From a virus, in the IMG/VR virus record IMGVR_UViG_3300023094_000004, positions 1-43,372 of that record: a DNA stretch of 43,372 bases; one strand, 5' to 3'. A model generated the notes under the pieces. It was not told the origin of the DNA, ran no database searches, and worked only from the letters and a program-made list of their open reading frames with translations. The position numbers were made by a program, and so were the translations under genes. This document shows, piece by piece, positions 21,999-42,230 of the stretch (the stretch's first letter is position 1; every line of letters begins with the position of its first letter).

Positions 21999-22016
21999 TT
22001 GACACTCCTATGTCAA
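21999..22016. promoter_or_regulatory. Perfect palindrome enclosing a ribosome-binding site
   Basis: On the minus strand it reads TTGACA-taggag-TGTCAA, followed by C and ATG of the 79-aa gene. The spacer contains the Shine-Dalgarno AGGAG. One of five copies outside coding sequence. Confidence 0.8.
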
Positions 22017-24322: not shown

Positions 24323-24340
24323 TTGACCAGGCGTTGTCAA
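24323..24340. promoter_or_regulatory. TTGACA-N6-TGTCAA palindrome, one mismatch, non-coding
   Basis: TTGACC-aggcgt-TGTCAA directly after the stop of the 72-aa gene and about 105 bases before the scaffold start. Confidence 0.65.
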
Positions 24341-29870: not shown

Positions 29871-30697
29871 GCGTGTGCCTCTCCGGTAATGACGAACTTC
29901 GTCGGGGGTGTCGGCACCGCGATGGCCTTGCCGATGGCGGCAAGCTGCTCGGGAGTGAGCGTCGGTGCCTTTACTGCTGCGACAGCAGCAGCGATCTTTG
30001 TCAGCGACATCTCCACGTCGCCGCCACGAATCGAGCCGAGATCACGACGAAGCTGGTCCTGTACGACGGTGCCTGCGCCGGGGTTGATAGCGGACAGATA
30101 GGCCGTCACGATGTCGCACTCAGCGCCAAGCATCGTGTCGTTCTCGACACGATAACGCTGAAGCAGGCTGACGTGATAGGGCGTCTGGACGTGTGCCCGG
30201 TTGCCAGTGATGAGCGAGCGCACCCAGATGCCCTCATTCGGGATATTGAACAGGGTGAACATTTCTTTCGCTTCCTCTGCGCTGATAGGGGTGGCACCAG
30301 TCGATGCCGTTACAGTGGTGCCGTTGTATCCGAAGTGATTGTAGTCCTTGAACGCCAGTTTGTTGCGGATAAATCCGTAACGCTCGCCGTTCTTGATCAG
30401 CCAGTCGAGACCGCCTGCAATGTCCACCTGTGTGCCCCATCCGTGGTCGGAAGGAAGGCCGGGAGTGACACCAGGGGTGATGCCATACAGCTTCGGGCGC
30501 GCACGCATGTCAAGCTGCACGGCGCGGGAGCGGTAACCACCAGCTCCGTTGAAACTCTGCACGATAGTGAGACTCACCCCATCTCGGGCAGCAGCAGCCT
30601 TCGCTGCGTTGAACTGCCGAGCAGTGGCAGGAGTCAGCCGTATACCGGGCTGAACAGTAACAAGCTCGCTGTCCTTCAGCTCTCCGTTTGCGCTCAT
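29867..30697 (-). CDS. Endolysin, M15 zinc peptidase
   Basis: 276 aa. The M15 peptidase domain occupies residues 20-125: SFNGAGGYRSRAVQ, then LPSDHGWGTQVDI with H85 and D92, and DYNHFGY with H121 as the third zinc ligand. It should cleave D-Ala or D-Ala-containing cross-links in peptidoglycan. The remaining 150 residues are helical and may bind the wall, though no classic repeat is visible. Coupled to tail fibre (TAATG) and holin (ATGA), so the lysis pair is fused to the tail-fibre transcript. A second M15 peptidase is at 11051. Confidence 0.88.
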   Translation of the reverse strand: MSANGELKDSELVTVQPGIRLTPATARQFNAAKAAAARDGVSLTIVQSFNGAGGYRSRAVQLDMRARPKLYGITPGVTPGLPSDHGWGTQVDIAGGLDWLIKNGERYGFIRNKLAFKDYNHFGYNGTTVTASTGATPISAEEAKEMFTLFNIPNEGIWVRSLITGNRAHVQTPYHVSLLQRYRVENDTMLGAECDIVTAYLSAINPGAGTVVQDQLRRDLGSIRGGDVEMSLTKIAAAVAAVKAPTLTPEQLAAIGKAIAVPTPPTKFVITGEAHA

Positions 30698-31617
30698 TAC
30701 AGCGGCACCCCCCGCACAGTAATCCAGCCATTTACAGCCGTTGTGGGCATGGTGATGATCAAATCGGTGTAGCTAGTCGAGGTACCGTTGTAACCACCCG
30801 TCATCAGTCGATACAGCGTCGTGTCCGCGGAATCTGCCATGTAGCGGGTTCGACGAGCGAGGAATGGCCCATTCACAAGAAACTTCCCTGTGCCACCACC
30901 CGCCGCACAACGACCGACAGAGAATGTGCTCTGAGCAGCCGACTGGGTCTGCGTCAACGTACCGCCGCCTCCAGAAACAGTGAGGTAGTTGTAATTGGCT
31001 GCTGTGTCCTGCGTACCTCCAGTCCCAAAGCCACAGAGAATGAGAGCGTCACCAGCCATCGAGTCAATCTCCCACTCGATTTCATAAGACTCAAACTCAG
31101 CGTTGAAAATGCCGTTCAGGAACAACTTCGACATACCGGAAAAGCTGACTCGGCCACTCGGCTGAATGGTGGCGTTTCCGACAGCAGGGGTAGTGCCTGT
31201 GACGCTGGCTGGAGTCATGAAAACAGCATCGCTGCCGACACCCACCCACGAAGTTCCGGTGTAGCGCTGCTCGTAGCCCTTGTCGGTGCGGAATACGCGG
31301 TTGCCGAGCTGCGGCACCGGGAACAGCGCGTCACGAAGCGCATCGCTGGCCGCATTCGGCGTGCCGATAGGCACCCACCGGCTCGATGCGATGGACCAGT
31401 ACATGTAGTTGCGGGTGTCGGACTCGTAGATGGTCTGACCAGGGAAGGGGGTCGAAGGTCGCGTACCGCTGGTGAAAACACCCGTGCCAATCGCCGCGTC
31501 GATCAGCTTCATGTTGTCGTTGATGCGATCAACGTCCAGCGACTCATCGGGCAGGATGAGACCAGAAGAGCCTCCACCGGGGAGGTAGAGGCTGAGTTTC
31601 GTGGTGAGTGCGCTCAC
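30697..31617 (-). CDS. Tail fibre / receptor-binding protein
   Basis: 306 aa from GTG 31617, overlapping the small-terminase stop (GTGA); the longer open frame upstream is a shadow of that gene. The N-terminus LSLYLPGGGSSG...PDESLDVDRINDNMKLID is the standard opening of actinophage minor tail/fibre proteins. Then TIYESDTRNYMYWS resembles the short tail-associated repeats before a β-rich, Gly/Thr/Ser-rich C-terminal part likely to bind the cell surface. Confidence 0.78.
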   Translation of the reverse strand: MSALTTKLSLYLPGGGSSGLILPDESLDVDRINDNMKLIDAAIGTGVFTSGTRPSTPFPGQTIYESDTRNYMYWSIASSRWVPIGTPNAASDALRDALFPVPQLGNRVFRTDKGYEQRYTGTSWVGVGSDAVFMTPASVTGTTPAVGNATIQPSGRVSFSGMSKLFLNGIFNAEFESYEIEWEIDSMAGDALILCGFGTGGTQDTAANYNYLTVSGGGGTLTQTQSAAQSTFSVGRCAAGGGTGKFLVNGPFLARRTRYMADSADTTLYRLMTGGYNGTSTSYTDLIITMPTTAVNGWITVRGVPL

Positions 31618-32336
31618 GTCAGTGACCCTTCGATCTTGTGCGTCACGTCGTATGCTACAGCGTGCGAGCGCATATCCGACAGAATCAGGTCTCTGATATT
31701 CGGGTCTCGGACGTGCTGCATGACGGACTCCACCATCGCGAGCACGACAGCCTTCGCGTCTTCGAGCGCCATCTGGTCGGGGTTCCAACGGCCCGTCATC
31801 TTCAGGGCCAGCTCGATCATGCGCGTGTCCCCTGCGTCGGCAGCACCGATGACCTTGTTCACCAGCATCGCGTTCGCACCCGACAGGTTGCGCTCGGCCA
31901 TCTGGTTCCCGGCCTGCACGAAGAGCGGCTGGTTCATCCACGCCTGGTAGCGCGAGGCAGGCACGCCCAGCTCCTTCAGCTTCACCGAAGTCGGGCGACG
32001 ATCTCCCACGTCGTTGAGCTTCAGCAGAACCATGTTCTGTTCCATCGTCAGCCCGCTGTTCGTGTCAGGCTCGATGCCCCGGTAGCGAATCGCGTCCTTG
32101 AACTCGTCAGTCAAGAACAACGCGCTGATGGTCTTCTTCGGCGCACGGGGGTAGAGCTTCTGCACCTCATCGACAGAGGGCAGCTTGCCCGCCATCCGGT
32201 AAGCCACGTCGTAGGCCGCGACCACGTTGCGGAACACGAGATCGGTGAAGCCGCGAGGGGTCTCCACCCGGTTGATCTTGTTCCCCGTCGTGTCACGGAC
32301 GACGATGCCCGACTCGACCAGCTCGAAGTTATCCAT
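31614..32336 (-). CDS. terS: Terminase small subunit (phBC6A51-type, probable)
   Basis: 240 aa from ATG 32336 with GGAGGA upstream. Residues about 118-190 resemble the homeodomain-like small-terminase family: KLKELGVPASRYQAWMNQPLF, then NLSGANAMLVNKVIGAADAGDTRMIELALKMTGR. The small subunit recognises phage DNA and presents it to the large subunit. Finding it upstream of tail fibre and lysis genes, some 2.6 kb before terL, is unusual, but the family match and the leftward-operon position support it. Confidence 0.7.
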   Translation of the reverse strand: MDNFELVESGIVVRDTTGNKINRVETPRGFTDLVFRNVVAAYDVAYRMAGKLPSVDEVQKLYPRAPKKTISALFLTDEFKDAIRYRGIEPDTNSGLTMEQNMVLLKLNDVGDRRPTSVKLKELGVPASRYQAWMNQPLFVQAGNQMAERNLSGANAMLVNKVIGAADAGDTRMIELALKMTGRWNPDQMALEDAKAVVLAMVESVMQHVRDPNIRDLILSDMRSHAVAYDVTHKIEGSLT

Positions 32337-32418
32337 GAGTCCTCCGGTACTGGAGGTAGATCGACCACGGGATGCCGACAGCAGCACAGAGGGCCACACA
32401 GATGCAGAGGCCGATCAT
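32329..32418 (-). CDS. Possible membrane microprotein, 29 aa
   Basis: The ATG overlaps the stop of the tandem-HTH gene (ATGA), and the ORF ends eight bases inside the small-terminase gene. Residues 2-23 form a single hydrophobic segment with three cysteines, followed by a basic tail (QYRRTHG). Coupling and topology are suggestive; no independent ribosome-binding site is evident. Confidence 0.5.
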   Translation of the reverse strand: MIGLCICVALCAAVGIPWSIYLQYRRTHG

Positions 32419-32942
32419 GACTTGTTCTCGTCCCACCAGTTGACCTGAAGCGCCAGCAGCTCGGCCATGTATGGGAAGCTCACCTCGCGGAGCGCTTCTT
32501 CAATTGCCTTCGGCATGGTGCGAGTCTCGCCATCGCGGTAGCGGAGCACGGTAGCGCTCGGCACCTTCAGCAGCTTGCAGAACGCCTGCTCGCTCGACGC
32601 AATCTGTCGGATGTAGTAGTAGAACGGGCTGTGCTGCTTGTCGTGCTGTCCGCTGATCGGCACCTGAAATTTGTAGGCAATCTGCGCCCGCTCGTTGCTC
32701 TTCCACGTCTGGTACGCCTGCTGGAGTGACTGCGCGTTGTAGTCCTGTGCGAGCAGACCGCGAGCGTCAATGCCCTTCTCGGCACACTCCATGCCTAGCG
32801 CCTTGTTCAGCTCATCGCTGATCTCGACGAACTGGCCCGACTCAGCGAATGTGATGGCCGTGCGCGAGAATCCGTACTTCTCAGCGAAAGCTCTTTGACT
32901 CAAAGTTGTCAACTTTCGTAGAGCTGCGAATGGGTTCTGCAT
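32415..32942 (-). CDS. Tandem helix-turn-helix DNA-binding protein
   Basis: 175 aa. An XRE-type helix-turn-helix is visible at residues about 8-45 (LRKLTTLSQRAFAEKYGFSR, then TAITFAESGQ), and a second similar unit at about 110-148 (SEQAFCKLLKVPSATVLRYRDGE). Two such units would suit binding of a symmetric DNA site. GAGAGGA precedes the ATG. An operator-like palindrome lies 30-47 bases inside the gene (32895-32912), as expected for autoregulation. It is therefore a leading candidate for the factor that reads the genome-wide TTGACA-N6-TGTCAA sites; this is inference. It could instead be a packaging or late regulator. Confidence 0.75.
   Translation of the reverse strand: MQNPFAALRKLTTLSQRAFAEKYGFSRTAITFAESGQFVEISDELNKALGMECAEKGIDARGLLAQDYNAQSLQQAYQTWKSNERAQIAYKFQVPISGQHDKQHSPFYYYIRQIASSEQAFCKLLKVPSATVLRYRDGETRTMPKAIEEALREVSFPYMAELLALQVNWWDENKS
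32895..32912. promoter_or_regulatory. TTGACA-N6-TGTCAA palindrome, one mismatch
   Basis: TTGACT-caaagt-TGTCAA at codons 11-16 of the tandem-HTH gene; coding strand L-T-T-L-S-Q, the minority frame. Confidence 0.65.
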
Positions 32943-32965
32943 GATGTCCTCTCGTGATACTTACG

Positions 32966-33036
32966 CTCCCCACCAAGGATTCGAACCTCGGATACCTGGC
33001 TCAGAACCAGGCGTGTTGCCGCTACACCAGCGGGGA
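32966..33036 (-). tRNA. tRNA-Gln (anticodon CUG)
   Basis: A complete cloverleaf on the minus strand: acceptor TCCCCGC with GTGGGGA (one G-U), D stem GTGT/ACAC, anticodon stem CCTGG/CCAGG with loop TTCTGAG (anticodon CTG), T stem CGAGG/CCTTG with loop TTCGAAT, and discriminator G. CCA is not encoded. It reads CAG codons, which are frequent in the Gln-rich virion genes of the same arm. It is transcribed in the leftward operon and must be cut out of that transcript. Confidence 0.96.
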
Positions 33037-33090
33037 ATGTGGGGCTGTACCGATCAGTCAGCGCGAAAGATCGGGCCAGCCCCGGTACTG

Positions 33091-33453
33091 CTACTCGTCG
33101 CCGCCCGTGCTGTACGGGTCAGTGCTCGGGGCAGCAGGCTCCTTCGGCAGGTTCTTGACCTTGCCGAGAGCGCTGATGAGGTCTTTGAGCTTCCAGCCAG
33201 AGATGACCAGCGGGGCATCGCCCACATAGCCAACCGGCAGGACGTTCACCAGCGGACGCCCGAGATTGTCTCCCGTGGTGATGGTGAAGTGGTCAGTCGA
33301 AATGACCTGACCCTCGAACGCTTTCGCATCCTCCTTGCCGTCACCGGCACCCTTCGCCACGGGCTGCTTCGCTGCGGGAGCAGTGTTGCTCGCCTTCAGT
33401 TCAGCGGCCTCGCGGATGACCTTCTCTTCGTCAGTCTCAGTCTTTTCGGCCAT
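33091..33453 (-). CDS. Hypothetical protein, 120 aa
   Basis: The start at 33453 is chosen because AAGGGAGG lies seven bases upstream; a second ATG at 33471 has none. The first 45 residues are Glu/Lys/Ala-rich and disordered, and residues 50-110 look folded (FEGQVISTDHFTITTGDNLG, then LVISGWKLKDLISALGKV). Last protein before the tRNA. No family recognised. Confidence 0.75.
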   Translation of the reverse strand: MAEKTETDEEKVIREAAELKASNTAPAAKQPVAKGAGDGKEDAKAFEGQVISTDHFTITTGDNLGRPLVNVLPVGYVGDAPLVISGWKLKDLISALGKVKNLPKEPAAPSTDPYSTGGDE

Positions 33454-33484
33454 CGGTTGGCCTCCCTTCATCTCGGGGGTGATC

Positions 33485-33814
33485 TTACTCGGATGCCTTG
33501 CGTGCGTCCACGACAGCTTGCAGCGCCTCGATCACGAACTCTGCCTCGTCGTCCTGAAGCACCATCTCTTGGCGGTCATTTCGGTTCTGGTAGTAGTTCA
33601 CTCTCACCTTCGTCACCACCGCCAGCTTGATGCCCTTGTTCAGGCTTCGGACGTAGAGCGTCCGCTTATTGTCGATCTGCACCTTCGCGTCGATCTTGGT
33701 GGAGACCGTGCGGGTGATATTGACGTCTAGCTTCGGAGGCTCAGGCGCGACCACCTCCACAAGACCCTCTTCCTCCAGCTCAGCGACTGCCAGCTCGACC
33801 TCTTCCTCATCCAT
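33485..33814 (-). CDS. Hypothetical protein, 109 aa
   Basis: The start at 33814 is preceded by AAGGAAG and overlaps the end of the next-upstream gene by eight bases. An acidic N-terminal helix is followed by β-type segments (DVNITRTVSTKIDAKVQI, then AVVTKVRVNYYQNR) and a C-terminal helix. Unknown function. Confidence 0.75.
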   Translation of the reverse strand: MDEEEVELAVAELEEEGLVEVVAPEPPKLDVNITRTVSTKIDAKVQIDNKRTLYVRSLNKGIKLAVVTKVRVNYYQNRNDRQEMVLQDDEAEFVIEALQAVVDARKASE

Positions 33815-34046
33815 CCTTCTCTTCCTTCTCGTAGTGTTTTGACAGTCCACTGTCATTGATCTGGCTTACTCGCGGAGCACCGTTCTTGTTGGAGCCGATC
33901 ACCTCATAGGTGTAGATGTACCGGCTCTCGGGGTCGCGATCAAACTTCGGGTCTCGGCCCTGCTTGACTTCCTTCAGGCGAATAATGATTCTTCGCTCCT
34001 TCAGGAACGGGTCAGTTGACACAAAAGTGTCACCAACCTCAGCCAT
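33807..34046 (-). CDS. Small β-rich protein, 79 aa, flanked by two internal operators
   Basis: Begins MAEVGDTFVS and contains ERRIIIRLKEVKQGRDP and RYIYTYEVIG, suggesting a small β-barrel. Two operator-like palindromes lie within its 240 bases, at 34016 (codons 5-10) and 33839 (near the end), 177 bases apart. Coupled to the upstream 61-aa gene by TAATG. Confidence 0.75.
   Translation of the reverse strand: MAEVGDTFVSTDPFLKERRIIIRLKEVKQGRDPKFDRDPESRYIYTYEVIGSNKNGAPRVSQINDSGLSKHYEKEEKDG
33839..33856. promoter_or_regulatory. TTGACA-N6-TGTCAA palindrome, one mismatch
   Basis: TTGACA-gtccac-TGTCAT inside the 79-aa gene; coding strand N-D-S-G-L-S-K. Confidence 0.6.
34016..34033. promoter_or_regulatory. 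TTGACA-N6-TGTCAA palindrome, one mismatch
   Basis: TTGACA-caaaag-TGTCAC at codons 5-10 of the 79-aa gene; coding strand G-D-T-F-V-S-T. Confidence 0.6.
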
Positions 34047-34231
34047 TAGATCGGTCCTGCCTTCCGAATCTCCTGAATCAGCTCGTTTACAAGCTGGTGA
34101 GTCTCGATGGCGAGGTCATCCAGCGAGCCGGGGAAGTTCCCGACAGGAATAGCGATCTCGGCGCTCTTCGTGGCATAGCCGGGATGTGCAATCTCAACAA
34201 CGACCAAGCGCTCAGTCTTCGGTCCTGGCAT
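34046..34231 (-). CDS. Hypothetical protein, 61 aa
   Basis: ATG 34231 with GAGGTGG seven bases upstream, overlapping the stop of the previous gene. A β-type N-terminal half (ERLVVVEIAHPGYATK) and a C-terminal amphipathic helix (HQLVNELIQEIRKAG). No recognised family. Confidence 0.75.
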   Translation of the reverse strand: MPGPKTERLVVVEIAHPGYATKSAEIAIPVGNFPGSLDDLAIETHQLVNELIQEIRKAGPI

Positions 34232-34518
34232 TAGTTCACCACCTCGTAGGTTGCCCAGAAGATGTCGGGCTTGCAGGGGTAAAACTCGCCCTGGACGCCA
34301 CGGATGATGTAGTCGCCAGGGTTGGCAAGCATCGTGCCTTCGAGGGTGGACACCTCCAGCGCATACTCCTGGCCGTTGTCTCCGATGCGGAACGGTCGGT
34401 AGCTGATGCCGTCGTACCCGTGGCTGGCTGCCCATGCGACGATTCCGACAGCAGTGGGTTCAGTGCCGTCGAAGGGCAGTGCCTCCACCTCGACCGGCTT
34501 CTTCCTGAAAATGCCCAT
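34231..34518 (-). CDS. Conserved phage protein, 95 aa (MGIFRKKPVEVEAL type)
   Basis: ATG 34518 with GAAGGAG upstream. The opening FRKKPVEVEALPFDGT and the ending GDYIIRGVQGEFYPCKPDIFWATYE are a pattern I recognise from many unrelated phages and prophages, always annotated without function. Probably a small α/β fold. Confidence 0.82.
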   Translation of the reverse strand: MGIFRKKPVEVEALPFDGTEPTAVGIVAWAASHGYDGISYRPFRIGDNGQEYALEVSTLEGTMLANPGDYIIRGVQGEFYPCKPDIFWATYEVVN

Positions 34519-34931
34519 CAGTTGCTCTCCTTCGTGTTCTTGATCAGATCGAGCACGTCGCTCCACCCTCTCGGCAGCGAGCCGTCCATCTGGCTCCGGT
34601 GCTCTTCGATTCGGTCGATGACCCGGCGAAGTGCTGCATCCCATCCTGCTCCACGGCTGAGGGCTACGGCTTGGCGCTGCATCTGCCCCAACCCGATAGC
34701 TTGACTGACGCCTCGCTGGAGCTGCCTCAACTGGTTCTCGACATCAGCGACGATGATCTGGTTGCCTCCCCGAATAGCCGACTCGTCGCTGATGGCAGTC
34801 TCGATCTCCTGAATAGGCAGGCGAAGCCGAACAGTCGTGTAATCCATCGGCTCGTTACGGAACTGCGTCACCTCGATGCCGGGTGCCTGGAACGGGCCAT
34901 GAACGATTGCCGCAAGGTCAAGCTCACTCAT
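34518..34931 (-). CDS. Hypothetical protein, 137 aa
   Basis: Coupled on both sides (TGATG at its end, overlap with the 115-aa gene at its start). A β-type first third with MDYTTVRLRLPIQEIE, then two long charged helices. No recognised domain. Confidence 0.75.
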   Translation of the reverse strand: MSELDLAAIVHGPFQAPGIEVTQFRNEPMDYTTVRLRLPIQEIETAISDESAIRGGNQIIVADVENQLRQLQRGVSQAIGLGQMQRQAVALSRGAGWDAALRRVIDRIEEHRSQMDGSLPRGWSDVLDLIKNTKESN

Positions 34932-35271
34932 CGTCTTCCCCCTTCGCAGCGATCAGTGCATCTCGCTCTTTCACGAGTCGGCTGATCTCCCAGTCCTTTG
35001 AGCCGAGCTGTCGGGACAGTGTTGCATTCGCCTCACGTAGTTCGGTTACGCGCTTTCGGGCCTCATCGCGCTCATCTTGCAGCACCTCGATCTCGCCCTT
35101 CAAGTAGTTCAGACCAACTTTTGCCTGCCAACTACCGCCGAAGTCCTCAGCGTCCAGACCAGCAGCTACCTGTGCCGGGGTCGGCTCCAGGCTGGTCTGC
35201 TTGACAGCTTCGATGGCTGCCTCCAACTCATCCAAGGCCGCATTCAGCGTTGCCCTCAGTGGCAGACTCAT
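34924..35271 (-). CDS. Coiled-coil protein, 115 aa
   Basis: ATG 35271 with GGAAAG upstream and an ATGA overlap with the preceding stop. The C-terminal 60 residues form a charged coiled coil (YLKGEIEVLQDERDEARKR, then ATLSRQLGSKDWEIS). Unknown function. Confidence 0.75.
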   Translation of the reverse strand: MSLPLRATLNAALDELEAAIEAVKQTSLEPTPAQVAAGLDAEDFGGSWQAKVGLNYLKGEIEVLQDERDEARKRVTELREANATLSRQLGSKDWEISRLVKERDALIAAKGEDDE

Positions 35272-35960
35272 TTGCGGAGCTTTCCGATCTCGGTGACCAC
35301 CTGCGACACGCTCACGCTGCTGTCGTGGGTGAGGCCGTGGGTCTCCTGAAGGTTGACGATGGCCTGGATAGCCTCGTTCCAACCCTCGATGTATCCACGG
35401 GCCTCACGAGCATTGGTGTCGGCTTCCCGCTCACCATCCGTCAGGCCGCTGTAGATAGGGGTCCACCCCTCGCCTTCCGTCACATTGCCATCCGTCGCCT
35501 CCTGCGGAACAGTCCCTTCATCGAGAGGCTGAGGCATGTCGTCGACAGCAGTGCCACCGGCAGGGTAGGTGAAGCCCGACATAGCTGCCTTCGCCTCATC
35601 GAAGCTGCCGAACTTCTGAGCAGCATCCAGGTGGTCCTCGTGGCTGAAGTCAGTGGTGGCAGGAACGATACGGGGGCCTTTGTCGATGACGTAGGTCTGG
35701 AGCTGGTCGACAGCTTCACTGAGCGCCTTCAGTGTCTCCAATACTTCGGGGTGCAGGTCGATGAGGCCGATACGCGCATCTCGGGCCATGTCGACCTTGC
35801 CCTCCGACAGCTTGTTTCGGCGCTTGCGCTCTTTCTTAGACAGCTTCACGAAGTCGGTGAAGGTCTCTGCCGTCTTCACAATGCTCTCGGCGTCAGCGCG
35901 AATGCCTGCACGAGAGGCAGCGAGGCGCAGCATCTCTTCACGGGTGTAATCGGTGTCCAC
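35268..35960 (-). CDS. First gene of the leftward arm, hypothetical, 230 aa
   Basis: GTG 35960 with AAGGAGAA upstream, 13 bases after the nearer of two GGTAAACTAAC promoter motifs. A basic, helical N-terminal half (SKKERKRRNKLSEGK), an acidic linker, then a helical C-terminal segment (REARGYIEGWNEAIQAIVNL). As the first leftward product it may be an early/regulatory protein, but no DNA-binding motif is certain. Confidence 0.78.
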   Translation of the reverse strand: MDTDYTREEMLRLAASRAGIRADAESIVKTAETFTDFVKLSKKERKRRNKLSEGKVDMARDARIGLIDLHPEVLETLKALSEAVDQLQTYVIDKGPRIVPATTDFSHEDHLDAAQKFGSFDEAKAAMSGFTYPAGGTAVDDMPQPLDEGTVPQEATDGNVTEGEGWTPIYSGLTDGEREADTNAREARGYIEGWNEAIQAIVNLQETHGLTHDSSVSVSQVVTEIGKLRK

Positions 35961-35972
35961 GGTGTTCTCCTT

Positions 35973-35983
35973 GTTAGTTTACC
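35973..35983 (-). promoter_or_regulatory. Leftward promoter motif GGTAAACTAAC, proximal copy
   Basis: Minus-strand copy of the six-member motif, 13 bases before the GTG of the 230-aa gene, with TAAACT as presumed -10. Confidence 0.6.
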
Positions 35984-36013
35984 AAGTGGGTTGTCTCAGT
36001 ATATGGCGAAGTG

Positions 36014-36024
36014 GTTAGTTTACC
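36014..36024 (-). promoter_or_regulatory. Leftward promoter motif GGTAAACTAAC, distal copy
   Basis: Second minus-strand copy, 41 bases upstream of the first, making a tandem pair that heads the whole leftward arm. Confidence 0.6.
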
Positions 36025-36059
36025 AAGGGCTTTCTCAATTTTCTGGGATACGTGCAAGT

Positions 36060-36074
36060 TGGAATCAAATGGAC
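36060..36074 (+). repeat. Repeat TGGAATCAARTGGAC, copy 1
   Basis: TGGAATCAAATGGAC in the divergent control region; one base different from the copies at 37027 and 37445. Confidence 0.5.
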
Positions 36075-36096
36075 CAATTAGGCGAACAACATCACT

Positions 36097-36114
36097 TTGA
36101 CAAGCTTGTGTCAA
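36097..36114. promoter_or_regulatory. TTGACA-N6-TGTCAA palindrome in the divergent control region
   Basis: TTGACA-agcttg-TGTCAA, 50 bases before the first rightward gene and about 75 bases upstream of the distal leftward promoter motif. Placed to control both arms. Confidence 0.82.
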
Positions 36115-36163
36115 CGCCAAGGCATTCGGACCTAGGCCACTACGTAACACGAAAGGCACGATC

Positions 36164-36964
36164 ATGGACACGACCACCGCTAGCACTACTCGCACGCAGC
36201 TGTTCACCGCTGACGAGGGCAATGTGCTTGCCCCCCTTTCGACCCACTACCGCAATACTGCTTGGAACGGCGACCCCACGTTCCTTACTCGCCTGTCACA
36301 GGACGACTACGCGGCATCCATCGCCAAGGGCATCTACAATGAGGCCGCTATCGCGAACGACGAGCACGACGCCCACAAGCTCAACGAGTCCACTGTCGTC
36401 GGCGTCGACACTGCGGCCATCGTCGCCCGTGACAATGAGGCTGCACTGCGACAGGCAGAGTTGCTGGGAGCCACGGCAGACCAGCGCCGCAAGCTCCGCA
36501 CCATCGTCGAAGAGCGCGCTGCTGCACAGCGGGAGGTTGAGGCGCTGAAGGCAGAAGTCGAGCGGCTGAAGAACGAGCCGATCACCGGCGACGACCGCCG
36601 TGTATGGCCGTTGTTCGGTCGTGCCGCTGATGAGGCAGACACGCAGGGTTACTGCTCGGTGTATGAGCAGATCAGTAACGCGGTCGGCATCCCCACTCGT
36701 GACGAGCTGAAGGAAGAAGGCTACGCGACGATGGCCGTCGACTATGAAGCCACGTATGACGTGACCTTCACGTTCTCCGTCCGTGTCGGGCTGGGCGAGT
36801 ACCGCTCCAGCGATGAGGCCATGCGCGACGCTCCGCAGTCCCTTTCGTCCTACTCGGCACGCGACGAGGTTGCCGAATTGCTCGGCATCCGCAGCGACGA
36901 CCTGTACAACGTCGCCACCTTCGTATCCTCCAGCCTTGACGGAGTGAGTGAGGTCGATAACTAG
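36164..36964 (+). CDS. First gene of the rightward arm, hypothetical, 266 aa
   Basis: ATG 36164 with GAAAGG upstream. A Thr-rich N-terminus, then charged helical regions including a clear coiled coil near residues 115-138 (AAAQREVEALKAEVERLKNE), then an α/β C-terminal part (TYDVTFTFSVRVGLGEYRS). No recognised family. As the first early gene behind an operator and closed by a hairpin it may be a host-takeover or regulatory protein, which is inference. Confidence 0.85.
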   Translation: MDTTTASTTRTQLFTADEGNVLAPLSTHYRNTAWNGDPTFLTRLSQDDYAASIAKGIYNEAAIANDEHDAHKLNESTVVGVDTAAIVARDNEAALRQAELLGATADQRRKLRTIVEERAAAQREVEALKAEVERLKNEPITGDDRRVWPLFGRAADEADTQGYCSVYEQISNAVGIPTRDELKEEGYATMAVDYEATYDVTFTFSVRVGLGEYRSSDEAMRDAPQSLSSYSARDEVAELLGIRSDDLYNVATFVSSSLDGVSEVDN

Positions 36965-37015
36965 CTAACACACGCGGGGTCCGTTCCTCACCCGAAGGGG
37001 AGCGGGCTTCGCTAG
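36961..37015 (+). terminator. Hairpin after the first rightward gene
   Basis: CCGTTCCTC (36981-36989) pairs with 36997-37005 (9 bp, two wobbles) around a 7-base loop; CTAGC/GCTAG (36961-36965, 37011-37015) can close an outer stem. No T-run, so partial termination or message protection. Confidence 0.5.
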
Positions 37016-37025
37016 CTCTCCACCA

Positions 37026-37043
37026 ATGGAATCAAGTGGACTT
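37026..37043 (+). repeat. 18-bp direct repeat ATGGAATCAAGTGGACTT, copy 2
   Basis: Exact match to 37444-37461. Lies between a hairpin and the next operator. Confidence 0.7.
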
Positions 37044-37071
37044 TTATAGCGCACAAATCAGACCATGTAAA

Positions 37072-37089
37072 TTGACACTCAGTTGTCAA
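37072..37089. promoter_or_regulatory. TTGACA-N6-TGTCAA palindrome before the 50-aa gene
   Basis: TTGACA-ctcagt-TGTCAA in non-coding DNA 55 bases before ATG 37144. The left half could be a -35, with CAATTA (37095-37100) as a weak -10. Confidence 0.8.
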
Positions 37090-37143
37090 TGAGGCAATTA
37101 CCCAACACACATAGCTCCACCTATATGCAAAGGAAATCTCATT

Positions 37144-37296
37144 ATGGAAGCTCACCTCACACTCGAAGGTGTCCTGATCTCACTTACCAACATCGGCGTC
37201 GTGCTCGCCACGGGAGTGAGCGTGTGGCTCACCCTGAAGGAGTCGCACCGTCACGACGAAGTGATGGCCCATGACATCACCAATGGGGACCACTGA
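37144..37296 (+). CDS. Small membrane protein, 50 aa
   Basis: ATG 37144 after an AAAGGA site. One membrane segment (about residues 8-31) and a charged tail (KESHRHDEVMAHD). The stop is coupled to the next ATG (TGATG). Small early membrane proteins of phages often interfere with host envelope processes or superinfection; no specific homology is seen. Confidence 0.75.
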   Translation: MEAHLTLEGVLISLTNIGVVLATGVSVWLTLKESHRHDEVMAHDITNGDH

Positions 37297-37376
37297 TGGA
37301 GGCCGTGCCATTCATCGTCGCATTCATCATCTGGGTTAGCTACACGACCCACATCGAGGTCAAGAAAGGTCGGTGA
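37296..37376 (+). CDS. Membrane microprotein, 26 aa
   Basis: Coupled to the previous gene (TGATG) and followed after 14 bases by a strong terminator, so it is framed as the last gene of an operon. Residues 4-17 are hydrophobic, and the C-terminus is basic (KKGR). Confidence 0.6.
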   Translation: MEAVPFIVAFIIWVSYTTHIEVKKGR

Positions 37377-37390
37377 TCCAACATCTTGAA

Positions 37391-37418
37391 AACGCCCCCT
37401 CTTCGGAGGGGGTTTTTT
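37391..37418 (+). terminator. Strong rho-independent terminator
   Basis: CCCCCTC (37395-37401) and GAGGGGG (37406-37412) form a 7-bp stem with a stable TTCG tetraloop, followed by six T (37413-37418). AAAA upstream makes it able to act in both directions. It closes the first rightward operon. Confidence 0.93.
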
Positions 37419-37443
37419 CATGCCCTCGCGAAATCGAGCTGAC

Positions 37444-37461
37444 ATGGAATCAAGTGGACTT
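37444..37461 (+). repeat. 18-bp direct repeat ATGGAATCAAGTGGACTT, copy 3
   Basis: Exact match to 37026-37043; again lies shortly after a terminator hairpin. Confidence 0.7.
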
Positions 37462-37604
37462 ACTGATCATGACGCTGCCAGCCGAAACCAAAACACATAG
37501 CGAACGTGCACGTTTTGTGAACTTCCAGCTCTGCACAGCTACCAACGAAAAAAGGCCACTAGCTAGAGCTAATGACCTTCTACGAGACCGCTTGTGACCC
37601 GAGA

Positions 37605-37731
37605 GGCCCCTAGGCCGACTCGCGAGGGGAACAGGTCGAGTGATGACCTAACACCACACTTCCCTTTACCAGTATCCCCTGTACGTCTCCGAGTCGCTAA
37701 GGCTTGAGACTACAGGGGAGACTAAGCGATT
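37605..37731 (+). ncRNA. Structured non-coding element with predicted pseudoknot
   Basis: Three hairpins in a row. GGCC 37605-37608 / 37613-37616; AGGTC 37633-37637 / GACCT 37645-37649; and a long stem TCCCCTGTA 37675-37683 / 37711-37719 continued by GTCTC 37685-37689 / GAGAC 37706-37710. The 16-base loop of the long stem contains AGTCGCT (37692-37698), which can pair with AGCGATT (37725-37731), an H-type pseudoknot. No credible gene overlaps. It could be an RNA or a DNA structure at the origin. Confidence 0.45.
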
Positions 37732-37921
37732 TCAAATTGGAAAACTTTTTGGTGAACTGAACCCCTGATTTCATTGGCGACACGCCGCAGCCTTGGAAGA
37801 GTTTCAGAAAACTTCTGAACTTTTCTGGAGCTTTGTCAGTTATTTTTCTCCAATCCTCTCCAATGACTGGTATTCCGGGCCTCACTTCACCAAAACTTTT
37901 TCAGAAGTTTTCTGAAAAGGA
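37732..37921. other. AT-rich inverted-repeat region, candidate replication origin
   Basis: The lowest-GC stretch of the genome, without a credible gene. TTCAGAA-AAC-TTCTGAA (37803-37819) and TTCAGAA-GTT-TTCTGAA (37900-37916) are each palindromes and exact reverse complements of one another. TTTTGGTGAA (37748-37757) is inverted as TTCACCAAAA (37886-37895). Nested, symmetric, AT-rich repeats beside the replication arm suggest an origin or a large operator. Confidence 0.45.
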
Positions 37922-37945
37922 TTGACAAGGTTTGGAGAACTGGTA

Positions 37946-38203
37946 ATGTCTTACGTGTTGGCGGGGAATCCCCCGCCACAGGCTCTGCCACTTGGACACG
38001 ATGTGGCTCTACTCGCGAATGGACACGCAATGCCTTACACCCCTGAAGAGATCGCCAGCCAAGCCCGTGATGAATGTGCGGGTCAATGGTTCGCTTCCGA
38101 CAGCGAAGCCGTGAGCATCACCCTGACTCTGGAGCAGTTCTCCGAGCTGTCGGGACAGATCGCCTACCGCGCTGCCACCCTCGCTATCGAGGTGACCGCA
38201 TGA
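37946..38203 (+). CDS. Hypothetical protein, 85 aa
   Basis: ATG 37946 with GGAGAA upstream is preferred over the TTG at 37922. Ala-rich, with a Pro/Gly-rich N-terminus and ITLTLEQFSELSGQIAYRAATL near the end. The stop is coupled to the next ATG (ATGA). First gene after the candidate origin. Unknown function. Confidence 0.72.
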   Translation: MSYVLAGNPPPQALPLGHDVALLANGHAMPYTPEEIASQARDECAGQWFASDSEAVSITLTLEQFSELSGQIAYRAATLAIEVTA

Positions 38204-38541
38204 CCACCCGAGCAGACTGCGATCGCGCATTCGACAACCTAAAGGACGCAGCCCTAGCTGTCGGATACGACCCCGAGCGCGTGGCGCGCTGGGGCTACTC
38301 CATCGGCTCGAAGACCTACGGCAACACCTCCCGGCTGTTCCAGGTCGGAGCCGACACCATCCAGCAGGGGCTGAACCCTGCCAGCGACCGCTACCCCTAC
38401 GGCTCGGGCCACTACTCGGCAGGCAACCTGCCCGAGTTCCTGGGTTGGGGACCAACAGACACACTCGACAGCCTGCGTACCATCACGCGCACGCTGTGGG
38501 CAGTGGCATACCTGAAGCGTGAGGAACTTTCACATGGCTAA
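38200..38541 (+). CDS. Hypothetical protein, 113 aa
   Basis: ATG 38200 coupled to the previous stop. Contains Gly/Tyr/Ser-rich stretches (RWGYSIGSKTYGNTSRLFQVG, then YPYGSGHYSAGNLPEFLGWG) and no recognised motif. It looks globular and is tightly packed in the operon. Confidence 0.75.
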   Translation: MTTRADCDRAFDNLKDAALAVGYDPERVARWGYSIGSKTYGNTSRLFQVGADTIQQGLNPASDRYPYGSGHYSAGNLPEFLGWGPTDTLDSLRTITRTLWAVAYLKREELSHG

Positions 38542-38746
38542 GGCCAAGTTCGTGCGAGCATGGCCCTTGCCCAATCACAGCGGCGAGGGCGCGCCGTGGT
38601 CTGACTACTTCTTGCAGAGGTTCGCCAATCTGCACGACGACCAGCTAGCCCGTTCATGGATAGTGAACGGTGATCGTGTCGGAGCCGGTTCGGTACGGGG
38701 CACGCTCTGGGAAAGAGAGGCCGAACGTGACCAAGCGCGAGCGTAG
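38534..38746 (+). CDS. Hypothetical protein, 70 aa
   Basis: ATG 38534 with GAGGAA upstream, overlapping the preceding stop. Trp/Arg-rich (FVRAWPLPNHSGEGAPWSDYF) and basic/acidic mixed at the end. No family recognised. Confidence 0.72.
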   Translation: MAKAKFVRAWPLPNHSGEGAPWSDYFLQRFANLHDDQLARSWIVNGDRVGAGSVRGTLWEREAERDQARA

Positions 38747-38915
38747 CAAGCTAGCCGTGCTGCTCAGTGGGGCCGTGCTCGGGTGGATTATGGTGCTCGG
38801 GCTGCTGGCCTGTTTCATCGGAGCTGTCTTCGGTCTGGTCTTCGTGACTGTCGGAGGTGTGCTAATGCTCTGGGCAGGTGTCGCGCTGCTCTACCGATTC
38901 TTGGATGAGCCGTGA
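38727..38915 (+). CDS. Membrane protein, 62 aa
   Basis: GTG 38727 with AGAGAGG upstream is favoured over an earlier frame start. A basic N-terminus (VTKRERSK) precedes two membrane segments (about residues 9-30 and 33-56). Overlaps both neighbours. Confidence 0.75.
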   Translation: MTKRERSKLAVLLSGAVLGWIMVLGLLACFIGAVFGLVFVTVGGVLMLWAGVALLYRFLDEP

Positions 38916-39139
38916 CCGACACACTGGTAGGCAAGGCCGTCGAGGTCTACATGCCCCGGCGATACAACGTCCCCGCGAGCGAATGGGATGGTCGAACAGG
39001 CGAGATCGTCGAAGTGCTCGGGCCGCTGCTCAATGGTGGGCACAGCCCGAGCAGGAAGCCGCTCATCTACTACCGCATCAAGCTGATTGGCAAAGGTACG
39101 CTGATCACGCTGACCGAAAGCCAATTCAAGCTAATTTGA
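38912..39139 (+). CDS. Hypothetical protein, 75 aa
   Basis: GTG 38912 coupled to the previous stop (GTGA). β-type: VGKAVEVYMPRRYNVPASEWDGRTGEIVEVLG, then IYYRIKLIGKGTLITL, resembling a small barrel of KOW or SH3 type. Its stop codon overlaps the TTGACA of the promoter at 39136. Confidence 0.75.
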   Translation: MTDTLVGKAVEVYMPRRYNVPASEWDGRTGEIVEVLGPLLNGGHSPSRKPLIYYRIKLIGKGTLITLTESQFKLI

Positions 39140-39175
39140 CATTTGAGTGTCAAGACAGGTAAACTAACTTTCATG
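39136..39175 (+). promoter_or_regulatory. Operator-overlapped promoter with leaderless start
   Basis: TTGACA (39136-39141) as -35, an 18-base spacer, and TAAACT (39160-39165) as -10 within the GGTAAACTAACTTTCA motif. The ATG of the SprT-like gene (39173) falls at the predicted transcription start. TTGACA is also the left half of a perfect TTGACA-tttgag-TGTCAA palindrome (39136-39153), so a bound protein would cover the -35. Confidence 0.78.
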
Positions 39176-39841
39176 ACCGATACAACGAAGAACATTCAGT
39201 CCCAGGCCCGTGACTCGAAAGGTCGCGTGCTCCCCAAGGTGATCGACACCCCGATGAAGCCGATACTTGACGCGGCCAACGAAGCGTTCAAGTCCATTCG
39301 CACCCGGCACCCCGAGGTGCCTAACGCGGTCCTCGTGATCGGCTCCAGCTCGAAGAAGAACTACGGCCACTTCGCTAAGCAGAGCTGGGATGGCAAGAAG
39401 CCGCAGCACGAGATCATGCTCAGCGGCGAGTCGCTGAAGCGTGGCGCAGTCGACGTGATGGGCACCCTGCTGCACGAGTCGGCACATGCACTGGCAGAGG
39501 CTCGCGAGATCAAAGACACCTCGCGTCAGGGCCGCTACCACAACACCAAGTTCAAGGCGCTGGGCGAAGAGCTGGGTATCCAGCTTCACGAAGACAAGTC
39601 CATCGGCTGGTCGCCTACGACAGTTCCCAGCGAGACCGCCAAGCTCTACAAGGCCGAGATCGCGGCACTCGCTAAGGCGCTGAAGACGTACCGCATCCCT
39701 GTCGAAGCAGCACCGAAGCCGAAGACGACAGTTCGCATCGAATGTGGCTGCCGTGGCGTGACTGTGCCGATCACGTTCTACGACAAGGCTGGCCTGACGT
39801 GCGACGAGTGCGGCGAGCCTTTCCTCCCGAAGGAGGGCTAG
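39173..39841 (+). CDS. SprT-like zinc metalloprotease
   Basis: 222 aa from ATG 39173; a frame extending ten codons upstream runs through the promoter. It has HESAHALAEA with H101-E102-x-x-H105, preceded by a KPQHEIMLS strand, the SprT/Spartan protease layout, and a C-terminal zinc ribbon (CGCRG, CDECG, near residues 191-214). Spartan-type proteases remove proteins cross-linked to DNA; phage members are common but unstudied. It has its own operator-controlled promoter and no Shine-Dalgarno, consistent with a leaderless message. Confidence 0.82.
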   Translation: MTDTTKNIQSQARDSKGRVLPKVIDTPMKPILDAANEAFKSIRTRHPEVPNAVLVIGSSSKKNYGHFAKQSWDGKKPQHEIMLSGESLKRGAVDVMGTLLHESAHALAEAREIKDTSRQGRYHNTKFKALGEELGIQLHEDKSIGWSPTTVPSETAKLYKAEIAALAKALKTYRIPVEAAPKPKTTVRIECGCRGVTVPITFYDKAGLTCDECGEPFLPKEG

Positions 39842-40089
39842 TGCCTCTCGACAACAGCGCCAACTCAGGCTTTCGCCGGTACAGCACGCTAGGTGAGGTG
39901 TCCGCTGCTGCTGAGCACCTGCCGAAGGCGACGAAGCACAAGCTGAGTGAGGAAGAGCACGAGTTCGTGCTAGCCAAGATCAAGGCAGGTCTTACTGACA
40001 TCGAAGTGTCAAGAATGTTCTTCCGCAAGTTCGGTCAGCGCTTCACAGCGGCTGGCGTGCATCACATCAGAAAGAGAGAGACACCGTGA
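39841..40089 (+). CDS. Helix-turn-helix-like DNA-binding protein, 82 aa
   Basis: GTG 39841 overlaps the SprT stop, with AAGGAGGG upstream. Residues 37-78 form three helices (SEEEHEFVLAKIKAGLTDIEVSRMF, then RFTAAGVHHIRKRE) that resemble a resolvase- or SANT-like helix-turn-helix. An operator-like site (39995) lies within this region of the gene. Confidence 0.65.
   Translation: MPLDNSANSGFRRYSTLGEVSAAAEHLPKATKHKLSEEEHEFVLAKIKAGLTDIEVSRMFFRKFGQRFTAAGVHHIRKRETP
39995..40012. promoter_or_regulatory. TTGACA-N6-TGTCAA palindrome, one mismatch
   Basis: CTGACA-tcgaag-TGTCAA inside the 82-aa HTH gene, read as T-D-I-E-V-S-R. Confidence 0.65.
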
Positions 40090-40556
40090 GAAACGGCAAC
40101 GTCAACCGAGTAGGCGCGACACTCATCGAGAAGCCCCGCAGCATTCCCGAGATCGTCGCGTCGACAGGCATCAGCTACTCAACCGTCTATCGTGCCTTGC
40201 AAGAGCTGGGCGCGGAGCGAATCGAAGACACCTACCCGTTCGAGTGGAAATTGCCGGGGGCCGATGCCGTCAAGTCGGTCACGAGCACGCTCGCGAAGGT
40301 AGGCCCAGACCACGACGAGCGCGTAGCTGTCGGAATCAAGCATGTTGACAGTATGGTGTCAAAATGGAATGCTAAGCGAGTCGAGATCGCCAAGGAGATC
40401 GCGAGCATGTCCATCGACATGACCGACAATCCCGCAGACCTGGCACGCAGTTTCGGGGTGCTGGCAGGGACGTTCGCCAACATCTCCAAGGTGCTCGACG
40501 ATGTTTCGGGAAAACCCGACTGGTTTGAGCTGGCGGGTGGTAGTCTCGACGAATAG
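40086..40556 (+). CDS. Winged-helix DNA-binding protein, 156 aa
   Basis: GTG 40086 coupled to the previous stop. Residues 10-50 are a winged helix (LIEKPRSIPEIVASTGISYS, then TVYRALQELGAERIED) of the MarR/IclR-like shape; the rest is helical and may dimerise. A perfect operator-like palindrome (40345) lies inside. With the 82-aa protein it forms a regulator pair behind an operator-controlled promoter, so either could be a repressor of the TTGACA-N6-TGTCAA network. Confidence 0.72.
   Translation: MRNGNVNRVGATLIEKPRSIPEIVASTGISYSTVYRALQELGAERIEDTYPFEWKLPGADAVKSVTSTLAKVGPDHDERVAVGIKHVDSMVSKWNAKRVEIAKEIASMSIDMTDNPADLARSFGVLAGTFANISKVLDDVSGKPDWFELAGGSLDE
40345..40362. promoter_or_regulatory. TTGACA-N6-TGTCAA palindrome, perfect
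   Basis: TTGACA-gtatgg-TGTCAA inside the winged-helix gene, read as V-D-S-M-V-S-K. Confidence 0.8.
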
Positions 40557-40574
40557 CTGGTAAACTAACTTTCA
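40557..40574 (+). promoter_or_regulatory. Promoter motif CTGGTAAACTAACTTTCA
   Basis: Identical 18-mer to 1748-1765, with TAAACT at 40561-40566, 33 bases before ATG 40607. No TTGACA at -35. Confidence 0.65.
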
Positions 40575-40606
40575 CATCAAATCGAATTGAACTAAGGAAA
40601 ATCATC

Positions 40607-40762
40607 ATGCGAACCTGGAAAAGCAAGCCCGAGTGGTCTGACGAGAGCAAGGCTCCCGCAGCCATCCGAATCCGTAAGGGCAACCACGGAAACGGTAACC
40701 CCGACCGCCCCTCGAAGATCACCCGTCGACAGAAGCGTGCAGCAGCACGCGCCGCGAAGTAA
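40607..40762 (+). CDS. Small basic protein, 51 aa
   Basis: ATG 40607 with AAGGAA upstream, first gene after a promoter motif. Rich in Arg/Lys (RIRKGNHGNGNPDRP, then TRRQKRAAARAAK) and presumably nucleic-acid binding. No known family. Too small for a confident fold. Confidence 0.75.
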   Translation: MRTWKSKPEWSDESKAPAAIRIRKGNHGNGNPDRPSKITRRQKRAAARAAK

Positions 40763-40776
40763 GGACACTGGACACC

Positions 40777-41256
40777 ATGCCGAAGAACCCCGAAGATATC
40801 ACTGAACAGCTCACTCCCGACGACATCGCTCGGGCCTACGAGCTGGAGCAGACTATTGCCCCGCTTCAGCAGGAGCTGGACGACCTGAAGATCAGGTTCA
40901 AGAACGAGCTGCCTGTGGGCGAGTACCCGAGCAAGAACGGCTTCCTCGTAAAGCGCTGGGAGCAGATGAGCACGTTCAAGTCTGCCGAGTTCCTGGCCGA
41001 GAAGCCGGTCAGCGAGAACCCCGAGCTGTACCGCGACGACCTCAACCTGGACCTCGTGCGCGAGAAGTTTCCAGTCGACGCCAACCCCGAGCTGTATGTC
41101 AAGCTGCCTGATACTCACGTCATCAAGGAGCTGCTGAACGACGAAGAAAAGCGCGCCTACTTCCGACAGGCTCAGTACCTGAAGATCACCCCCAAGCCGA
41201 AGGGCAAGCCGAGCACCGTGCCCAACTTCGAGCAGGAAGACCCCGAGGACGCCTGA
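40777..41256 (+). CDS. Hypothetical protein, 159 aa
   Basis: A coiled-coil N-terminal segment (ELEQTIAPLQQELDDLKIRFKNELP), then a mixed region (NGFLVKRWEQMSTFKSAEFL) and an acidic end. Helical N-terminus plus KNGFLVKR-type strand resembles phage proteins found beside recombination genes, without an assigned role. One-base overlap with the next gene. Confidence 0.8.
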   Translation: MPKNPEDITEQLTPDDIARAYELEQTIAPLQQELDDLKIRFKNELPVGEYPSKNGFLVKRWEQMSTFKSAEFLAEKPVSENPELYRDDLNLDLVREKFPVDANPELYVKLPDTHVIKELLNDEEKRAYFRQAQYLKITPKPKGKPSTVPNFEQEDPEDA

Positions 41257-41882
41257 TGAAACTCGCAGACGTGGAGTTCACCACTCCCGGCAAGCCGCTG
41301 CTCTACGCCGTTGGGCCTGCCAGTCGTTACGACGAATGGAGAAAAGGCCAGGGGCTGCTGCTGAAGTGGGACAAGGATGCCCGTTACGTGGTCGTGCTGT
41401 TCCGGCGTTTCTACAAGCTTGAAGAACCTGCCGACAGCCCTGAGAAGGCGTCGAAGTACACCATTGAAATGCGGGATGAGCGGAACGAACTAGTTCGTGA
41501 GCGCAATCGCATTCACTGGAATAAGGCCAAAGAGCGCGCTGAGATCGAGGCCAAGATCGAGAAGCTCCCGAAGCTGCCGAAAGGCTGGGAGCTTACTACG
41601 TTCGGCCTCAATCAGATCGTCAAGCCGTGGGTCGAGTACCTGGATGCCAAGGCTGCTGCCGAGGTAGCGAAAGCCGCTGCCGACGAAGCCCGCAGGCTGC
41701 TGACCATTGCCGGTCAGGAGAAGATCGACGCCATCAACGCGAAGATCAAAGAGTTGTTCGGCCTGGAGCGCGAAACCCCGCCTGGATTCTCTTATAAGAG
41801 GGGCTTTGCATCGCACGGTGAGGTTCGCTTCACCTACGATGAGTTTGACACCATCGTGTCAAGGATTCGGTCAAATGGCTGA
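41256..41882 (+). CDS. Hypothetical protein, 208 aa
   Basis: A β-type N-terminal region (RYVVVLFRRFYKLEEP), then a long charged coiled coil (RDERNELVRERNRIHWNKAKERAEIEAKIEKL), an Ala-rich helix and a folded C-terminus. No recognised domain. The 3' end carries a perfect operator-like palindrome (41845-41862) that overlaps the approach to the next gene's start. Confidence 0.8.
   Translation: MKLADVEFTTPGKPLLYAVGPASRYDEWRKGQGLLLKWDKDARYVVVLFRRFYKLEEPADSPEKASKYTIEMRDERNELVRERNRIHWNKAKERAEIEAKIEKLPKLPKGWELTTFGLNQIVKPWVEYLDAKAAAEVAKAAADEARRLLTIAGQEKIDAINAKIKELFGLERETPPGFSYKRGFASHGEVRFTYDEFDTIVSRIRSNG
41845..41862. promoter_or_regulatory. TTGACA-N6-TGTCAA palindrome, perfect
   Basis: TTGACA-ccatcg-TGTCAA 13 bases before ATG 41875, inside the 208-aa gene and read as F-D-T-I-V-S-R. 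Confidence 0.8.
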
Positions 41883-42060
41883 GACAGACCTGACTCAACG
41901 CGAGTACGAAGACCGGCCATACGACGAAGACATGGCTGTTGTGGTCGTCGCGAACGAATACGACGACCAATCAGCAGACTACGAGGCCGACCCTGACGAT
42001 TTGCGTGACGCCGAAATCTTCGACGACATGCTGGCACAGCAGGAAGACGACGGCTCATGA
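41875..42060 (+). CDS. Highly acidic small protein, 61 aa (possible DNA mimic)
   Basis: ATG 41875, overlapping the previous gene. 23 of 61 residues are Asp or Glu against 3 Arg and no Lys, spread along the chain (for example NEYDDQSADYEADPDDLRD), giving a net charge near -20. Small, strongly acidic phage proteins often imitate DNA to block restriction enzymes, nucleoid proteins or polymerases. This is inference from composition only. Confidence 0.75.
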   Translation: MAETDLTQREYEDRPYDEDMAVVVVANEYDDQSADYEADPDDLRDAEIFDDMLAQQEDDGS

Positions 42061-42230
42061 CCCTATTCATCATCTCGATGGTGCTCTATGCCGTAGCCCT
42101 GGTGCTGCTCATCTCGGCAGTGGTCACAATGATTCGTGACACTGAGGCAAGCCCCGTGGCTCGCTGGGTAGCTGGCTGGGTCTTCTGGTTGGCAGGCGCT
42201 GTGCTCACGGGAATCAACATTGGCCTCTAG
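42057..42230 (+). CDS. Two-span membrane protein, 57 aa
   Basis: The ATG overlaps the previous stop (ATGA). Hydrophobic segments at about residues 3-26 and 38-57, with a charged turn (RDTEASPVARW). The 3' end overlaps the probable TTG start of the helicase gene. Confidence 0.75.
   Translation: MTLFIISMVLYAVALVLLISAVVTMIRDTEASPVARWVAGWVFWLAGAVLTGINIGL

Follow-up and report, generated by a model that had tools for sequence, protein, structure and literature searches.

The initial annotation of this phage DNA described a near-ideal promoter, TTGACA-N18-TAAACT, whose -35 hexamer forms half of a perfect palindrome and whose ATG at 39173 lies on the expected first transcribed base. This arrangement raises the question of whether the palindrome acts as an operator for that promoter, and whether such a role could also account for the other copies of the same palindrome in the window, the whole stretch of 43,372 nucleotides analysed here.

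Genome context

The window represents a complete circular assembly of 43,245 bp, as the first and last 127 bases of the 43,372-base contig are identical; a gene for an SNF2-type helicase crosses the assembly join. Terminase and polymerase place the phage near Microbacterium phage Shocker, the Arthrobacter Jasminevirus phages and Cellulosimicrobium phage DS1, relatives with a similar order of core genes and with hosts in Microbacterium, Arthrobacter and Cellulosimicrobium. Tyrosine integrase (PF00589), serine recombinase (PF00239), ParA (PF13614) and ParB (PF02195) were not found in the complete genome, and there is therefore no evident lysogeny for which genes would have to be silenced. When PolA, the SprT-like protein and the 175-aa protein described below were used as single queries against the viral collection, no relatives were found, and the search for prophage relatives in genomes gave no close one, only a single distant match.

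A palindrome over the -35 of the SprT-like operon

The locus comprises the following features.

39136 to 39153, no strand: exact palindrome TTGACA-N6-TGTCAA of the initial annotation, overlapping the -35
39158 to 39168, + strand: promoter element GGTAAACTAAC with the -10 TAAACT (39160-39165)
39173 to 39841, + strand: SprT-like metalloprotease-family gene (Pfam, phrog_6361), predicted leaderless start, first of the operon
39844 to 40089, + strand: gene for an 81-aa protein weakly resembling a DNA-binding family, containing site 39995
40086 to 40556, + strand: gene for a 156-aa winged-HTH-like protein, containing site 40345; homologues in the related genomes G032 and G040 and in Shocker (gp57)

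The described sequence is correct in all its coordinates. The arms of the palindrome, TTGACA (39136-39141) and TGTCAA (39148-39153), are perfect over 6 bp each and enclose a 6-bp centre, TTTGAG, that is not symmetric; the stop codon of the upstream open reading frame (38912-39139) falls within it. The -10 follows TTGACA after a spacer of 18 nt and ends 7 nt before the ATG (39173-39175), a distance that fits initiation at the start codon from an actinobacterial promoter of the sigma-70 type.

The product of the first gene matches the Pfam SprT-like family at 4.5e-05, just below the curated cut-off, and phrog_6361 at 1.3e-26. Its homologue in G032, which is 55% identical and has neither a promoter element nor a palindrome upstream, matches it from residue 1 (MTDTTQNIKSQRRDAKGKLLP in G032, MTDTTKNIQSQARDSKGRVLP in the window; shared N-terminus MTDTTxNIxSQxRDxKG). 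This match shows that the coding sequence includes the first 18 residues and begins at ATG 39173, in agreement with the initial annotation; an alternative GTG start at codon 19, preceded by the SD-like AAAGG, was rejected because of this conserved N-terminus. A transcript beginning at this ATG would be leaderless.

In a consensus scan of positions 30000-43372, the 39136 site was the best promoter-like match (10/12). The same scan returned three promoter-like sites against 3.6 expected, and the hexamers by themselves therefore prove nothing. The promoter reading gains support from the 11-mer GGTAAACTAAC, which contains the -10 and has six exact copies in the window, all at gene boundaries. The other five are:

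1750 to 1760, + strand: GGTAAACTAAC, with TTGACA 19 nt upstream of TAAACT
3465 to 3475, + strand: GGTAAACTAAC
35973 to 35983, - strand: GGTAAACTAAC
36014 to 36024, - strand: GGTAAACTAAC; palindrome site 36097 begins 73 nt upstream, at an equal distance in the related genome G001
40559 to 40569, + strand: GGTAAACTAAC

Three copies of the variant type GGTAAGCTAAC lie in the homologous control region of G001, and the recurrence supports GGTAAACTAAC as a real promoter-type element. TTGACA stands at 18-19 nt in two of the six copies and is absent from four, which look like extended -10 promoters. The 39158 copy is the only one whose expected first transcribed base coincides with a start codon; leaders precede the genes at the others, and the palindrome covers none of these five promoters.

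The observation that the -35 is one half of the palindrome holds in the sequence but carries little weight, TTGACA being intrinsic to the palindrome. By our arithmetic for six promoters and 24 sites, the chance of a left half-site 16-19 nt upstream of any -10 is about 0.013, and that of any overlap between a palindrome and a promoter core about 0.2. Repression at 39136 is plausible from this layout: a protein bound at 39136-39153 would occlude the -35 and could thereby repress the operon of the SprT-like, 81-aa and winged-HTH genes.

A genome-wide array of the same palindrome

At up to one mismatch, the window contains 24 copies of TTGACA-N6-TGTCAA, of which 12 are exact and 12 have a single mismatch, against 0.06 in shuffled sequences. 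The arms keep a constant separation of 6, which gives 26 matches at up to two mismatches compared with 0-7 at every other distance. In addition to 39136, the network sites, to which no strand applies, are:

848 to 865: exact, in the helicase gene; same position in G032 and G040
2571 to 2588: one mismatch
3872 to 3889: one mismatch
6503 to 6520: exact
7686 to 7703: one mismatch
9786 to 9803: exact; same position in G001
11401 to 11418: exact
12205 to 12222: one mismatch
15229 to 15246: exact; same position in G001 and G016
17550 to 17567: one mismatch
21999 to 22016: exact, intergenic; shared with G001 to within 1 nt
24323 to 24340: one mismatch, intergenic; shared with G001 to within 1 nt
25884 to 25901: one mismatch
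27472 to 27489: one mismatch; same position in G001 and G016
28936 to 28953: exact
32895 to 32912: one mismatch, 30 nt into the 175-aa HTH gene; same position in G001
33839 to 33856: one mismatch
34016 to 34033: one mismatch
36097 to 36114: exact, in a divergent control region; same position in G001
37072 to 37089: exact, intergenic; G001 counterpart offset by about 34 nt in the alignment
39995 to 40012: one mismatch, in the 81-aa gene
40345 to 40362: exact, in the 156-aa gene
41845 to 41862: exact

Pooling the sites of four genomes shows TGAC to be nearly invariant in both arms, with little information in the spacer and flanks. The sites are spaced more evenly than random both in the window (CV 0.55, P 0.0015) and in G001 (CV 0.44, P 0.0003). 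Nineteen of the 24 lie wholly within genes, both where transcription runs rightward and where it runs leftward, and the five that are not wholly coding exceed the 6% expected (P 0.013). The array is unoriented with respect to transcription, as the consensus is symmetric and the mismatched half lies downstream seven times and upstream five times.

Such an array could in principle arise by chance, from codon usage, or from a repeated protein motif that is palindromic in DNA, and 17 of the 21 placements in listed open reading frames do share one frame, encoding the peptide hydrophobic-D-x-x-hydrophobic-S. The third frame across the palindrome would, however, carry a TGA stop, and the frame bias arises because only some frames tolerate the palindrome DNA. 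The count of 24 is itself far from the chance expectation, some coding sites are read in another frame, homologues lacking the site have other residues, and conserved non-coding sites contradict a protein motif; these explanations were rejected as having almost no probability.

Within the array, 39136 is an exception, and the proposal that it is typical of the network and anchors its interpretation did not hold. A search beside all 24 sites on both strands found a GGTAAACTAAC-type -10 only at 39136, and a weaker TANNNT at a spacing of 19 at two other palindromes (0.46 expected). With one promoter among 24 mostly genic sites, repression at 39136 cannot explain the array.

Conservation and restriction to one branch

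Sites at up to two mismatches number 18 in G001 (partial, 33.5 kb); G016 (partial, 22 kb) has nine, and G032 (complete, 43.5 kb) has seven to nine, seven of them at up to one mismatch. The non-carriers (G006, G018-G021, G023, G033, G040 and Shocker) have between zero and four sites at up to two mismatches, mostly imperfect, and some of these genomes are equally close to the window in their core proteins. Dispersed palindromes of the same geometry but another sequence were not convincing in any non-carrier, the TCTA-N8-TAGA of Jasmine and Adat amounting to a handful of copies. Scanning DNA for exact matches to the conserved site TTGACAAGCTTNTGTCAA returned only G001 and six unrelated contigs.

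Homologous site positions were mapped through protein alignments. A counterpart no more than 1 nt from the homologous position was found for 7 of 15 testable window sites in G001 and for 2 of 8 in G016, with changed centres, and the remaining testable sites have moved or been lost in these two genomes. At coding sites held in common the residues follow the DNA, as in V-D-x-x-[LM]-S in the window, G001 and G016, and site-less relatives have other residues. Site 848 in the helicase gene, found in G032 and, as its only site, in G040, is weaker evidence of conservation because the protein itself is conserved there. The excess of the array, the homologous positions with unconserved centres and the few sites outside the branch indicate that the sites are under selection as DNA. 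Core-protein trees separate the window, G001 and G016, then G032, from the rest (support 97-98), and the simplest history would be a single gain in the branch of these four genomes, with a denser array in part of it.

Sites in control regions

Three sites (36097, 37072 and 39136) lie in control regions; most others do not. Site 36097, at its constant distance from a GGTAAACTAAC-type promoter, is the only site to retain a nearly identical centre in G001. A repeated 14-mer, GGAATCAARTGGAC, precedes two of the three:

36061 to 36074, + strand: GGAATCAARTGGAC, 22 nt before site 36097 (36 nt start to start), with the same spacing in G001
37028 to 37041, + strand: GGAATCAARTGGAC, 30 nt before site 37072, also preceding the G001 counterpart
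37446 to 37459, + strand: GGAATCAARTGGAC, without an adjoining palindrome

Copies in G001 are located at 32253, 33177 and 33242, one of them with two mismatches, and the related GGAAGCAARTGGAC is present in G032. GGAATCAARTGGAC is perhaps a second promoter class.

Candidate binding proteins

Judging by its distribution and conservation, the palindrome is probably bound genome-wide, and two proteins of the window are candidate binders: the 156-aa winged-HTH-like protein of the SprT-like operon (40086-40556) and the following.

32415 to 32942, - strand: gene for a candidate binder of 175 aa that has two HTH-like modules; a core gene of the whole phage group

The model of the 175-aa protein (pLDDT 95) is all-helical with an HTH-type module at each end, a fold shared by the relatives of this protein in Shocker and in an Arthrobacter phage. 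The nearest PDB structures, at low significance, are XRE-type repressors (Stl, SinR, C proteins), and no L5-type Cluster A repressor is among the listed structural matches. Its gene holds the conserved palindrome at 32895. Co-occurrence does not support it as the binder, the core gene being present also where the palindrome is absent; its putative recognition-helix residues differ between carriers and non-carriers. Modelled by itself, the 156-aa protein gives an unreliable structure (pLDDT 55), and the region of its gene is missing from G001 and G016.

The winged-HTH protein could make 39136 a local operator, serving its own operon and functionally unrelated to the other copies; the operon's third gene encodes it, and two more sites lie within genes two and three. 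The recurrence of an identical 12 bases 24 times at a fixed spacing speaks against so local a role, as do the winged-HTH homologues of G040 and Shocker, which accompany network-less genomes, and we regard this as very unlikely.

Binding by a regulator or nucleoid protein of the host in place of a phage protein would fit the failure to find a phage gene tracking the array across relatives, although parts of the G001 and G016 genomes are missing and might encode the binder. The relatives' hosts vary. Sites so dense and regular along the phage genome point to a system made by the phage, and we know of no genome-wide regulator recognising TTGACA-N6-TGTCAA; a host binder thus seems an unlikely solution.

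Comparison with known dispersed sites

The closest precedent is the array of Corndog (Cluster O mycobacteriophages), in which a 17-bp palindrome, TGTTCGG-N3-CCGAACA, occurs in 34 copies with its function left unexplained (PMC4351075). Both arrays have a near-invariant dyad with a variable centre, extend genome-wide with many genic copies and no clear orientation, lie mostly off promoters, and belong to phages without integrase or parAB. The window sites differ in sequence and spacer, belong to an unrelated phage group, and are fewer and evenly spaced, whereas those of Corndog are denser at one end; the window array can also be compared across diverged relatives with or without sites. By this analogy, the array matches the Corndog class in all but sequence and density pattern.

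The stoperators of Cluster A phages (L5, Bxb1) are 13-bp asymmetric sites oriented with transcription in temperate phages, numbering 20-30 per genome, some covering an early promoter and most lying apart from promoters, and are bound by a monomeric repressor of about 180 residues with two DNA-binding domains (PMC6550527, PMC9283540). The window array resembles them in copy number (24), in having most sites elsewhere than at promoters and in the 175-aa candidate with two HTH-like modules, similar in size to the L5-type repressor. Its sites are, however, symmetric, unoriented and mostly in coding sequence, and integrase and parABS genes were not found in the window phage; the array thus lacks two defining features of Cluster A stoperators, an asymmetric oriented site and a temperate phage. 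The L5 site reportedly contains TGTCAAG.

Two further systems are less similar. The temperate phage phiC31, which has an integrase, carries conserved inverted repeats (CIRs) scattered over its genome and bound by the phage repressor; these are likewise symmetric and dispersed, but differ from the window sites in sequence, number and promoter association. The cellular matS/MatP system also uses short palindromes scattered at intervals, matS containing GTGAC...GTCAC, whereas the window belongs to a phage.

The present array is a further case of dispersed palindromes in a phage without lysogeny genes, in a group unrelated to Corndog. With relatives in which the array is full (18-24 sites), reduced (7-9) or absent, the function of such repeats becomes a comparative and experimental question, namely which sites persist, which gene came along and what binds, and 39136 offers a defined, testable combination of promoter and site.

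Role of the array

Our leading interpretation, to which we give a probability of about 0.45, is that the array consists of sites for one phage DNA-binding protein, which would act as an operator-bound repressor at 39136 and as a symmetric roadblock elsewhere. The binder would most likely be phage-encoded and act as a dimer or through two HTH modules, and at the other sites the bound protein could block elongation like a stoperator working in both directions. We infer protein binding, its phage origin and the block of transcription from the array excess, the fixed arm distance, the conservation, the neighbouring control elements, the intergenic enrichment and the HTH model of the 175-aa protein. 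Against a roadblock stand the single promoter-core site among 24, the lack of the orientation seen in true stoperators, the lysogeny genes not found, the occurrence of the 175-aa protein in palindrome-less relatives and the G032 SprT homologue without an upstream site.

Several of these points also fit genome organisation, in which the bound protein would bridge, condense or segregate DNA or mark it for replication or packaging, with the promoter overlap at 39136 being secondary. In two genomes the sites are more evenly spaced than chance would give, which fits an architectural role at least as well as a roadblock, the genic sites are unoriented and lie in both transcription directions, no lysogeny genes were found in the complete genome, and the authors of the Corndog study thought transcriptional regulation unlikely for their analogous array (PMC4351075). 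The intergenic enrichment and the positions of sites 36097, 37072 and 39136 in control regions are less readily explained in this way; in addition, no ParB-like protein was found and G032 manages with 7-9 sites. Even spacing, absence of orientation and absence of lysogeny genes leave room for both roadblocks and organisers, and roadblocks are rated slightly higher because of the control-region sites; an organising role appears somewhat unlikely. Slightly less likely is its fullest form, a genome-organising system belonging to a lytic lineage, with an even, symmetric site about every 1.8 kb that was gained in one branch of a podovirus-like group, retained even where this altered the encoded residues and bound by a protein that condenses, segregates or packages DNA.

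Other features of the genome

A tRNA-Gln gene (anticodon CTG, 32965-33036) lies directly upstream of the 175-aa HTH gene. Beside the portal gene, positions 24341-24559 encode a 72-aa protein whose counterparts in G001, G016 and G032 are 70-77% identical to it, a conservation at the level of the major capsid protein; in most non-carriers of the palindrome array it is weak or absent. Inverted repeats occupy the non-coding region 37740-37917, with fully complementary 18-nt arms at 37802-37819 and 37900-37917, and may mark an origin or a terminator.

A separate, unoriented 8-mer with the core CTGT is strongly over-represented in the window, Shocker (L024), L025, L026, L028 and other relatives. Its second half is lineage-specific, with CTGTCGGA occurring 29 times in the window, CTGTAAAG 45 times in Shocker and 28 times in G020, CTGTGGGA 23 times in Jasmine and CTGTAGGA 23 times in ctEqG8; it could be a primase or recombination signal. 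Shocker also contains 25 copies of TACCCTA; several precede an ATG by about 6 nt, and the motif resembles the -10 of promoters whose transcripts have a short leader or none.
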